Assembly: GCF_003207815.1 (NCBI RefSeq)
Contig: NZ_NKTX01000001.1
Span: forward strand, 248,001-312,000
From: Komagataeibacter oboediens
GTDB lineage: Bacteria > Pseudomonadota > Alphaproteobacteria > Acetobacterales > Acetobacteraceae
Direction of reading: 5' to 3'
Length of the DNA: 64,000 nt
Below the pieces are notes generated by a model. The model was not told the origin of the DNA. It saw only the letters and a program-made list of their open reading frames with translations, and ran no database searches. Position numbers and translations under genes: made by a program. The stretch's first letter is position 1; every line of letters starts with the position of its first letter. Below, in pieces: positions 30,539 through 34,113 of this stretch.

Positions 30539-30559
30539 CATGCCATGTGGCATGGCATG
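30539..30559. other. Perfect palindrome CATGCCATG-TGG-CATGGCATG
   Basis: A nine-base perfect inverted repeat with a three-base spacer lies 46 bases after gshB and 158 bases before the methyltransferase start. Its symmetry suits a dimeric regulator binding site or a short hairpin. No promoter elements around it are clear. Confidence 0.4.
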
Positions 30560-30717: not shown

Positions 30718-31431
30718 ATGAGTGACGTTCTGCACGATGAGGCCGCTGAAAAAGTCGTGGAAATACCTTCTCCCAAATCCGCGCTGGATGCGGCGGCGGT
30801 CAAGGCGGCGTATCGCCGCTGGGCCAGCGTGTATGACGCCGTATTCGGCAGCATTTCCGCCTTCGGGCGCAAGCGGGCGGTCGAAGCCGTCAACGGCCTG
30901 CCGGGCACGCGGGTGCTGGAAGTGGGCGTGGGCACGGGCCTTGCGCTGCCTTATTACCGCAAGGACAAGCATATTACCGGCATCGACCTGTCGGGCGACA
31001 TGCTGGAACGCGCGCGTCAGCGCGTAAGGCGGCTGCACCTGTCCAATGTGGACGACCTGCTGGAAATGGATGCCGAGGCAACGAAGTTTGACGATGGCAC
31101 GTTCGACATAGCGGTGGCGATGTTCGTTGCCTCCGTTGTGCCGCATCCGCGTGCGCTGCTGGCGGAACTCAAGCGCGTGGTCAGGCCGGGCGGGCATATC
31201 CTGTTCGTCAATCACTTCCTGGCGCAGGGTGGCGTGCGGCTGGCGGTTGAACGCGGTATGGCGCGGGCGTCGCATTCGCTGGGCTGGCACCCGGATTTCG
31301 CCATTGAATCCCTGCTGCCGCCTGCCGACCTGCGGCGCGCGACACTGCAGTCGGTACCCCCTGCCGGGCTGTTCACGCTGGTTACGCTGCCGCGTGAGGC
31401 CGACAGTTCCGCCAGCCCCATGGTGGCGTAA
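30718..31431 (+). CDS. pmtA: PmtA-like phosphatidylethanolamine N-methyltransferase
   Basis: The protein is a 237-residue class I SAM-dependent methyltransferase. The segment VKAAYRRWASVYDAVFG before the SAM motif, then VLEVGVGTGLALPYY and ITGIDLSGDMLERARQR, match the Rhodobacter/Sinorhizobium-type PmtA that converts phosphatidylethanolamine to phosphatidylcholine. Acetic acid bacteria commonly make phosphatidylcholine, which fits. ATG 30718 has GGGAGCAG upstream and is preferred; the open frame reaches back to 30547. UbiE-like specificity cannot be fully excluded. Confidence 0.82.
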   Translation: MSDVLHDEAAEKVVEIPSPKSALDAAAVKAAYRRWASVYDAVFGSISAFGRKRAVEAVNGLPGTRVLEVGVGTGLALPYYRKDKHITGIDLSGDMLERARQRVRRLHLSNVDDLLEMDAEATKFDDGTFDIAVAMFVASVVPHPRALLAELKRVVRPGGHILFVNHFLAQGGVRLAVERGMARASHSLGWHPDFAIESLLPPADLRRATLQSVPPAGLFTLVTLPREADSSASPMVA

Positions 31432-31604: not shown

Positions 31605-32969
31605 ATGCCCACAGGCACACGGTTCGGGGCAGGTGAGGCGCGCAATGCTGATGGGGCCTGTGGCTACAGGACGGTCGGCATGCTGTACCTTGTCATGGCG
31701 ATTGTGGCGGGAATGGTTGGTGGCCTGCTGGCCGTGGGCCTTCAGGTCGGCCTGCTGCCCCAGACGCTGACCGATGCATGGGCCGGGGGCGACATCGCCG
31801 GTGCCGCCGGACGCATCGGCCGCCGTCATGGCATGATGATGGTGTTCTTCTGTGCTCTGCCTGCCCTGTTTGGCGGATTTGGCAACTGGTTCGTACCGCT
31901 GCTGCTGCGCGCGCGCGCGCTGGCGTTCCCGCGCATGGCGCTGATGGGGTGGGGACTGGTTGCCGCCAGTTTCGTGGCCGTGCTGGTGGGGCTGTCCCCC
32001 ACCGTTCCCGCGCAGGTTTCCCTGTTCGCCCTGATGGGGTGGAGCCTTGGCATGCTGCTGCAGGCCATCAACATGGTCGCCACCGTCCTGAACATGGGGC
32101 CGATGGGCCAGCGCCTGCGTGACATGCCCGTATTCGTCTGGGCGCAGGCGCTGACGGCCATGATGGTTGTCATGGTCATGCCCGTTCTGGCGGGTGGCCT
32201 GACGCGGATCATACTGGCGGGGGACGACATGTCCGGGCAGGTCGATGGTCTGCTGCATGTTTTCGCCGGGCCCGAGATCGCGCTGCTGCTGCTGCCGTCC
32301 ATCGGGATCGTTTCCCAGATTATCGAGACATTTTCCGGTGCGCCATTGCAGATGCCGCGTCTGGTGCTGGGTGCGCTGGTCGTCATGTCGATCGGTGGTG
32401 GTTCAGTGTGGGTACATGACCTGCTGCATGGCGGTCTGGCCCGCATGGCGGCACCTGCGGCCATTGTCCAGCTCGGGCTGATCGTCCTGCCGGTGCTGGC
32501 GGTTCTTGTGGCCTGGGCGCGTACGGTGCGGGTGGGGCATGTCCGTGCCTCGGTCCCCATGGAATGGGCGGCCGGGTTCGTGGCGCTGCTGCTGGTGGGA
32601 TCCGGTATGTCGCTGCTGCCCGGCGGTATGGCCGACGTACATGCGGCCACGCTGTATGCCGCCATGTTCGCGCTGTTTGCCGGTTTCTATTACTGGATTG
32701 GCAAGATGATGGGCCATGTGGCCCCGGTTGGCGCCAGCCGCGTCCATTTCGGGCTGACGGTCGGGGGAACGGTCCTGTCGCTTATGGCGTTCCATGGCCT
32801 GCCGGGCGTTATGGGCGCGGTGCTGATGGGACTGTCCTTGGTCGTGTTTGCCGGGATCGTCGTGCGTGTCGGCATGCAGCCCCGCACGTCGCTGCCTGCC
32901 AATTACTGGGGACCGGGGGCGCGGACACCTGAATGGCAGTCTGCATCCCCCACGCGTGGAGAGGCATGA
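31605..32969 (+). CDS. Haem-copper oxidase subunit I-like protein lacking the binuclear-centre ligands
   Basis: The 454-residue multi-pass protein clearly descends from cytochrome c oxidase subunit I: HGMMMVFFCALPALFGGFG, LAFPR, LLQAINMVATVLNM, PVFVWAQALTAM, PVLAGGLT, PEIALLLLPSIGIVSQII and LFAGFYYWIGKMMG align with the family. By Paracoccus numbering, low-spin haem ligands H94 and H413 are kept (H75, H346). The haem a3 ligand H411 is D344, CuB H276 is G222, H326 is D272 (H325 remains as H271), Y280 is A226, D124 is A105 and K354 is V300. It cannot do normal oxygen reduction. ATG 31605 follows AGGGAG by eight bases; the frame opens at 31560. ctaB follows three bases downstream. Function unknown. 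Confidence 0.88.
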   Translation: MPTGTRFGAGEARNADGACGYRTVGMLYLVMAIVAGMVGGLLAVGLQVGLLPQTLTDAWAGGDIAGAAGRIGRRHGMMMVFFCALPALFGGFGNWFVPLLLRARALAFPRMALMGWGLVAASFVAVLVGLSPTVPAQVSLFALMGWSLGMLLQAINMVATVLNMGPMGQRLRDMPVFVWAQALTAMMVVMVMPVLAGGLTRIILAGDDMSGQVDGLLHVFAGPEIALLLLPSIGIVSQIIETFSGAPLQMPRLVLGALVVMSIGGGSVWVHDLLHGGLARMAAPAAIVQLGLIVLPVLAVLVAWARTVRVGHVRASVPMEWAAGFVALLLVGSGMSLLPGGMADVHAATLYAAMFALFAGFYYWIGKMMGHVAPVGASRVHFGLTVGGTVLSLMAFHGLPGVMGAVLMGLSLVVFAGIVVRVGMQPRTSLPANYWGPGARTPEWQSASPTRGEA

Positions 32970-32972
32970 AGC

Positions 32973-33932
32973 ATGAGCGGCGCAGTCACAACGCCCGACG
33001 CGGCGCAACCTACCCCCATTACCTATGATGCCGCCCGCGTCGGGACGGAAGCGCGGGACTGGCTGCTGCTGCTCAAGCCGCGCGTCATTTCGCTGGTGGT
33101 GTTCACCGGGGCTGCTGGCCTGTATATGGCGCCGGGGCCGCTGAACCCGCTGGTGGCGGCTGTCAGCATCCTGTGCGTGTGCATGGCATCTGGTGCGGCG
33201 GGTGCGATCAACATGTGGTATGACCGCGATATCGACGCGGTGATGAAGCGCACGGTAACACGGCCCATTCCCAACGGGCGTGTCAGCCCGGATGCGGCGC
33301 TGGGGTATGGCATTGGCCTGTCGGTTGCGTCCGTCATCCTGATGTGGCTGGCCACCAATGCCCTTGCGGCAGGCATTCTTGCGTTTTCCATTTTCTTTTA
33401 TGCCGTCATCTACACCATGTGGCTCAAGCGTTCGACACCGCAGAACATCGTGATCGGCGGCGCGGCGGGTGCGTTCCCGCCCATGATCGGGTGGGCGGCG
33501 GCAACAGGGTCCATGGCGGTGATGCCGGTGGTGATGTTCGGCATCATCTTCCTGTGGACACCACCGCATTTCTGGTCGCTGTCGCTGTATGCGTGCAAGG
33601 ATTACGGGCGGGCGGGTATTCCCATGCTGCCGGTGGTGCGCGGGGCACGGCACACGCGGTGGCAGATACTGTGGTACACGATCATCCTGACCGCTGTATC
33701 GCTGGTGCCATCCTTCATGCATCTGGCGGGCTGGCTATACACCGTGGTGGCCACTGTTCTGGGAGCAGGGTTCATTTACTGTGCCATCGGGGTGCTGCGT
33801 GACCGGCAGGATGCCAGTGGTGTCAGCCTGACGGGTGACGGTCCGGCACGCCGGTCCTTCCGCTATTCGCTGGCTTACCTGTTTTTCCTGTTCCTTGGTC
33901 TGCTGGCCGACCATGCCTTTATTGCCCACTGA
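32973..33932 (+). CDS. ctaB: Haem O synthase (protohaem IX farnesyltransferase)
   Basis: CtaB/CyoE attaches a farnesyl group to haem B to give haem O. The 319-residue UbiA-superfamily protein has the diphosphate-binding motif NMWYDRDIDAVMKRT, a second conserved segment YAVIYTMWLKRSTPQNIVIG, and GAFPPMIGWAA, with about nine membrane segments. GGAGAGG precedes the start and only three bases separate it from the oxidase-like gene. Haem O is needed for the bo3-type quinol oxidases of acetic acid bacteria, so this enzyme has a clear use even without cytochrome c oxidase. Confidence 0.96.
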   Translation: MSGAVTTPDAAQPTPITYDAARVGTEARDWLLLLKPRVISLVVFTGAAGLYMAPGPLNPLVAAVSILCVCMASGAAGAINMWYDRDIDAVMKRTVTRPIPNGRVSPDAALGYGIGLSVASVILMWLATNALAAGILAFSIFFYAVIYTMWLKRSTPQNIVIGGAAGAFPPMIGWAAATGSMAVMPVVMFGIIFLWTPPHFWSLSLYACKDYGRAGIPMLPVVRGARHTRWQILWYTIILTAVSLVPSFMHLAGWLYTVVATVLGAGFIYCAIGVLRDRQDASGVSLTGDGPARRSFRYSLAYLFFLFLGLLADHAFIAH

Positions 33933-33966: not shown

Positions 33967-34113
33967 ATGGATCAGGCAATAACAGTTCAGGTGACACCGC
34001 AGATGGAAGCGCAGGAGGCGGCGCGCCGACACAGGGGCCGCATCCGCGCCGTGGCGATTACGCTTTCGGCGCTGGCGGTCATCCTGTACGCGCTCAGCCT
34101 TACGCATATTTAG
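33967..34113 (+). CDS. CoxF-like single-pass microprotein
   Basis: This 48-residue protein has a basic cytoplasmic stretch (AARRHRGRIRAVA) and one C-terminal membrane helix (VAITLSALAVILYALSLTHI). Its size, position directly after ctaB, and Arg-rich segment followed by a helix ending LYALSL resemble CoxF, the small protein between ctaB and ctaG in alphaproteobacterial cta operons. The match is by pattern and position, not by a strong motif. ctaG and ctaE, which normally follow, are absent; a 670-base gene-free stretch comes next. Confidence 0.65.
   Translation: MDQAITVQVTPQMEAQEAARRHRGRIRAVAITLSALAVILYALSLTHI

Follow-up and report, generated by a model that had tools for sequence, protein, structure and literature searches.

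As judged from its sequence and surroundings, a short gene that directly precedes the haem O synthase gene ctaB in Komagataeibacter oboediens is an in-place descendant of ctaD from a lost aa3-type cytochrome c oxidase. Both histidines of the low-spin haem site are unvarying among the copies that we compared, a pattern that suggests a haem protein put to new use and not a gene in decay.

The short ctaD gene and its locus

The gene lies on the forward strand of the window, the 64,000-nucleotide stretch of DNA that was analyzed here, and encodes a protein of 454 amino acids (positions 31605..32969). Its descent from CtaD (COX1) is seen in the match to the Pfam COX1 family (PF00115; 133.7 bits against a cut-off of 34.8), in the alignments and in a model with the COX1 fold, and its closest named match is from Komagataeibacter intermedius (97% identity). 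A preliminary description of this DNA had reported an uninterrupted frame of 454 codons, a good ribosome-binding site and tight coupling to ctaB, all of which we could confirm: the frame is open from end to end and closes with TGA, the motif AGGGAG stands 8 nt upstream of the ATG, and the stop codon ends 3 nt before the ATG of ctaB at position 32973. The ctaB gene itself (32973..33932, forward strand) matches the haem O synthase model TIGR01473 with 328.4 bits (cut-off 210.3), and no other gene in the genome scores above that cut-off.

Upstream on the same strand is a gene for a PmtA-like methyltransferase (30718..31431), which domain matches and synteny suggest to be a flank retained from the canonical operon; the start at 30718 is our choice, and a longer frame begins at 30547. 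Such a gene adjoins the cta genes whether the locus is canonical or reduced. Downstream of ctaB, again on the forward strand, is an open reading frame for a one-helix membrane protein of 48 amino acids (33967..34113), kin to the small frame that follows ctaB in canonical cta operons. Relatives were identified after ctaB at 18 of 40 loci, and since three of these are canonical cta operons, the small CoxF-like protein was retained as well.

The short protein scored 143.5 bits on the CtaD model, 86 bits on the QoxB model and 84.1 bits on the CyoB model, all far under the equivalog cut-offs, which for CtaD (TIGR02891) is 670.75 bits. A Pfam scan of the protein returned COX1 only and no SURF1 domain. 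SURF1 is a haem chaperone of cytochrome c oxidase; its family is unrelated to the short protein, and the likeness between the two extends only to the proposed handling of haem in oxidase biogenesis.

Descent from a canonical cta operon

The order of genes in Acidiphilium rubrum (L105) is a pmtA-like methyltransferase gene, ctaC (COX2), ctaD, ctaB, ctaE (COX3) and surf1, while the window contains greA, gshB, pmtA, the short ctaD gene and ctaB, followed by a gene for a Tim44-domain protein and a PmbA/TldD gene on the other strand. We compared 42 stretches with a short COX1 gene and ctaB, consisting of the window, nine named loci and 32 further stretches, with a few genomes included twice. The pmtA gene is located upstream, and the short gene directly upstream of ctaB, in all 42 stretches, none of which gave a match to ctaC, ctaE or surf1, and the Tim44-domain gene comes after ctaB in 36 of them. 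In 21 of 32 stretches, a start codon of ctaB and the stop codon of the short gene overlap by 4 nt, and in the remaining 11 a possible start falls anywhere from 1 nt upstream to 13 nt downstream of the stop.

When 52 rows were placed in a tree, all 35 short rows grouped as a single clade within the canonical CtaD proteins of the Acetobacteraceae (SH-aLRT value starred 100); the tree was inferred with a quick method and has long branches, and the branching order inside the short clade is unsure. The 35-row set omits the near-duplicates L051 and L037. Eight of the 40 loci were not used as short rows: L162 is canonical, L168 has another context, the gene is deleted in L174 and partial in L177, and the contigs of L156, L175, L176 and L178 end before the gene. 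The clade adjoins L063, a protein whose start resembles that of Lichenicoccus roseus (L080). The first branch within the clade is L167 (from genome G071), a protein of 526 amino acids in which the active site is lost. This intermediate retains some of the loop sequence that is missing in the other short rows.

Synteny and tree together indicate that ctaD stayed in place, was altered once and was thereafter inherited. Independent origins of the short form are not favored, since the 35 short rows fall into one clade and have a common locus. The preliminary description had called the protein a paralog of oxidase subunit I; its membership of the subunit I family stands (PF00115), but a recent duplication of CyoB is ruled out by both synteny and tree.

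The canonical A-type CtaD proteins of the Acetobacteraceae, such as those of Acidiphilium rubrum (L105) and Lichenicoccus (L080), have in common with the short protein the fold, the position between pmtA and ctaB and the low-spin histidines, and it is among such sequences that the short clade is nested. In contrast to them, the short protein lacks the residues of the binuclear centre, four loops and the neighboring ctaC, ctaE and surf1 genes, and the window copy also lacks the residues of the K and D channels. The other COX1 frame in the window genome (687 amino acids) encodes CyoB, which is subunit I of the quinol oxidase (bo3/ba3 type). CyoB belongs to the same superfamily, but is complete and is encoded elsewhere together with cyoA, about 58 kb from the short gene; the short protein scores much lower on the CyoB than on the CtaD model. 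The only COX2-domain match in the window genome adjoins cyoB. A second COX1 frame of 548-624 amino acids is also found elsewhere in several genomes that carry the short gene, among them G042, G073, G142, G189, G060 and G184.

A retained low-spin haem site and a lost oxygen-reducing centre

Residue equivalences were taken from three alignments, one with four canonical rows, one with 11 canonical CtaD rows and one of 68 short rows with those same 11; the Paracoccus residue numbers were tied to sequence motifs. All nine residues listed in the preliminary description were as it had stated, and their equivalence to the Paracoccus residues holds in the three alignments. The axial ligands of the low-spin haem, H75 (H94 in Paracoccus; codon 31827..31829, forward strand) and H346 (H413; codon 32640..32642, forward strand), are histidines in every one of the 68 short rows. 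From COX1 topology, we take both to be located in helices that bear haem ligands in the oxidases.

The oxygen-reducing centre presents a different picture. The high-spin haem ligand H411 is D344 in the window copy and a histidine in only two of the 68 short rows. The CuB ligands H276, H325 and H326 are G222, H271 and D272 in the window copy and histidines in 0, 31 and 7 of the short rows, and the cross-linked Y280 is A226 and a tyrosine in none of them; the zeros for H276 and Y280 were derived from totals of kept residues and not from printed counts. No row retains more than two of these five residues. In the window copy, the channel residues D124 and K354 have been replaced by A105 and V300. 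Four canonical stretches of 18, 11, 13 and 21 residues are absent from the short protein, and presumably correspond to periplasmic loops in the COX1 topology. The last of these includes the arginines of the MPRRY motif, which were lost together with their loop in 67 of the 68 short rows and which we assume to anchor the haem propionates.

Shifted ligands, which would have pointed to a misreading, were searched for with a profile into which no short row had entered, the canonical rows being its sole source. This profile placed a histidine at the H94 site in 66 of 66 aligned short rows and at the H413 site in 48 of 48, with 18 more rows uncovered at the latter site and two of the 68 rows giving no match. 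A misalignment is thus not borne out where the sites are covered, and the invariance of both ligands in the 68 rows upholds the original proposal of a kept low-spin site and a lost oxygen-reducing centre.

A confident AlphaFold2 model of the short protein has 12 helices (pLDDT 81.7, pTM 0.87) and is closest to subunit I from Paracoccus (1ar1_A; Z 41.1, 2.9 A over 422 residues). Since this model could lean on the canonical rows in its alignment, a second model was built without them, and it still has the COX1 fold (pLDDT 72.7; Z 37.0, 3.2 A over 418 residues). In both family membership and predicted fold, the short protein thus keeps the 12-helix COX1 scaffold.

The gene is not new, as it is mentioned in earlier papers. 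In the annotation of Acetobacter pasteurianus, ctaD (APT_01775) adjoins ctaB (APT_01774) (PMC5158111). In the relevant passages of Degli Esposti et al. (2023; PMC10715153) the gene is described as “deranged,” without all metal-binding residues and perhaps stabilizing CtaB. Judging by description and neighborhood in these passages, the deranged COX1-like protein of Acetobacter represents the same gene (PMC10715153; PMC5158111). The sequences contradict the word “all” in that text (PMC10715153), since both low-spin ligands are present in each of the 68 rows. In the open literature that we searched, outside which most subscription papers fall, we found no report of the kept haem ligands of the short gene. 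Compared to the passages in PMC10715153, three points are new here: the low-spin ligands are strictly retained, selection on the gene has been measured, and its presence and loss have been traced across the clade.

Distribution and loss

With a profile made from 28 short rows, we searched 75 genomes of the clade with 25 genus codes, selected from those already encountered. The search recovered a full-length short gene in 68 genomes with 20 genus codes. Named carriers of the gene are Komagataeibacter, Novacetimonas and Gluconacetobacter, by sequence match, and Acetobacter pasteurianus, by its annotation (PMC5158111). The frames are uninterrupted over 404-526 amino acids in the 68 genomes, with one stop-to-stop frame of 751; for G214 and G037 the search listing shows one stop, yet the retrieved frames are intact. 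A partial gene at a contig edge in G009 is outside the 68.

The short gene was not found in the remaining six of the 75 genomes searched with the profile (G001, G029, G066, G070, G116 and G210). Five of these have neither a ctaB nor a CyoB match over the family cut-offs, and together they span four genus codes. One of the five, G210, belongs to a genus code whose six other sampled genomes carry the gene. In G001 (L174), the short ctaD gene alone has been cleanly deleted, so that pmtA runs into ctaB, while ctaB and two CyoB-like genes have been kept, from which it follows that CtaB and the oxidase can manage without the short protein.

Selection on the short gene

The median dN/dS values for the short ctaD gene are 0.187 in Komagataeibacter, 0.179 in Novacetimonas and 0.325 in Gluconacetobacter, compared to 0.078, 0.096 and 0.156 for ctaB, as estimated from five, four and five genomes of these genera; the frames ran from stop to stop, and the sole trimming was to columns free of gaps. 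With tree lengths of 25.6 for the short gene and 8.5 for ctaB, the short gene has a roughly threefold higher rate of evolution. Across 364 columns and a tree length of 36.6, the median number of changes per column is 18 for the 68 short rows, and the median among these rows is likewise 18 for columns that are invariant in the canonical rows. Only four columns are without any change, namely H75, W179, W269 and H346. A simple calculation shows that chance would place two given columns among these four in about one of 11,000 draws. Of the 293 columns that are invariant in 11 canonical rows, seven are also invariant in 35 short rows (G25, H75, G91, P98, W179, W269 and H346), and a separate alignment of 28 rows showed the same seven along with G234.

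Two tryptophans are as invariant in the 68 rows as the two haem ligands. These are W179 (codon 32139..32141, forward strand), identified by the count of substitutions on the 68-row tree, and W269 (codon 32409..32411, forward strand), change-free on the same tree, which precedes the former H325-H326 pair.

By these sequence measures, the short gene is under purifying selection and is constrained but loose, with the tightest constraint on the low-spin haem ligands. The preliminary description had argued for maintained function over decay, and had named relaxed selection and frequent frameshifts in relatives as signs of a pseudogene. Neither was seen: the dN/dS values are well below 1 (0.18-0.33), the higher rate relative to ctaB notwithstanding, and the frames are intact in all full-length carriers. 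An abstract by Matsutani and co-workers from 2014 is said to attribute the loss of function of ctaD to a likely accumulation of mutations. A decaying pseudogene, or a polar remnant kept only for the translation of the downstream ctaB gene, would fit the rapid evolution, the change at most of the canonical-invariant CtaD positions and the loss in G001. It is hardly credible, however, in view of the dN/dS values, the uninterrupted frames and two haem ligands that are unchanged over the whole length of the tree, and we reject it.

The rates of the short gene and ctaB do not covary significantly (partial Spearman 0.13, p 0.32), and the covariation is larger for flanking genes without a known link to the short gene (0.40 for gshB, 0.36 for the Tim44-domain gene and 0.31 for pmbA).

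A putative haem protein next to the haem O synthase

The genes for oxidase biogenesis provide a context for the kept site. No CtaG/Cox11 or SURF1 gene was found in any of 28 tested carriers of the short gene. The window genome encodes a haem A synthase, but 13 of the 28 do not, and in those 13 any haem bound to the short protein would thus be B or O. An arginine at the position of R54, which in the oxidases we take to contact the formyl group of haem a, is found in none of the 13 carriers without haem A synthase and in six of the 15 with it, counts that ignore shared ancestry. From the fixed ligand pair and these distributions, we infer that the short protein would be a bis-histidine membrane protein that binds haem B or O in a low-spin site.

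We tentatively favor, as the best explanation overall, a bis-histidine haem protein that works with CtaB and holds or hands on haem. The genes ctaC, ctaE and surf1 left the locus, with ctaD remaining between pmtA and ctaB, and subunit I lost its copper and high-spin haem centre and four loops, while the low-spin haem histidines stayed. The short protein and CtaB may then act together in the membrane, a step of which we are less sure, with the low-spin site holding either the haem B substrate or the haem O product of CtaB. From there the haem could go to CyoB in the quinol oxidase of bo3/ba3 type and, in genomes that have it, also to CtaA, so that an oxidase subunit would have become a haem-handling partner of the haem O synthase. 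The more specific version, in which the subunit was turned into a dedicated carrier from CtaB to the quinol oxidase after the acetic acid bacteria had lost the cytochrome c oxidase, is possible but rather doubtful. A partnership with CtaB is consistent with the five genomes in which the short gene is missing along with ctaB and CyoB; the deletion in G001 with ctaB kept argues against it, and so do evolutionary rates that fail to covary with those of ctaB. Adjacency alone is weak evidence, because it was inherited from the canonical operon. Against a role in haem handling speak the loss of the arginine pair for the haem propionates and the two invariant tryptophans, for which the proposal does not account.

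Several of these observations could be explained differently. The protein may be a low-spin cytochrome of b or o type with an electron-transfer or redox- or haem-sensing role of its own, independent of haem O synthesis. Selection on the haem ligands themselves, rate covariation that does not single out ctaB and the dispensability of the gene for CtaB and CyoB in G001 all agree with such a role, which we nevertheless regard as somewhat unlikely: the stretches that we retrieved encode no electron-carrier partner or signaling domain alongside, subunit II (CtaC with CuA) is gone from the locus, and the gene was not found in the five genomes without ctaB and CyoB.

The proposal in print, as worded in the passages of Degli Esposti et al. 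(2023; PMC10715153), would make the protein a haem-free structural stabilizer of CtaB. The constant coupling to ctaB and the kept scaffold are in line with it, but it leaves unexplained why two axial histidines became fixed, unlike other canonical-invariant positions, and the sequences conflict with its starting point, a protein stripped of every metal-binding residue. Given also that ctaB is kept alone in G001 and that covariation with ctaB is absent, we consider this explanation unlikely.

As a third alternative, the protein might dock via its haem-bearing face onto the quinol oxidase that contains CyoB, either to assist in assembly or as a regulatory subunit. The oxidase requires haem O from CtaB, and in the five genomes tested the short gene is missing where CyoB is missing. 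Since CyoB is encoded at a distant site in the window genome and is present without the short gene in G001, such a partnership seems quite improbable.

If the low-spin site of the protein that we tentatively place beside CtaB does bind haem, the short protein would represent a natural one-haem COX1, in which the haem-binding half of the oxidase subunit has been split from the oxygen chemistry. To our knowledge, the route of haem O from the synthase to the oxidase is an open question, and the haem-carrier reading, if true, would explain how haem O moves through the membrane once it has been synthesized. A gene that is coupled to ctaB throughout a clade of harmless bacteria that can be cultured, and that has been naturally deleted in one of them, offers a direct handle on the question of haem O transfer.
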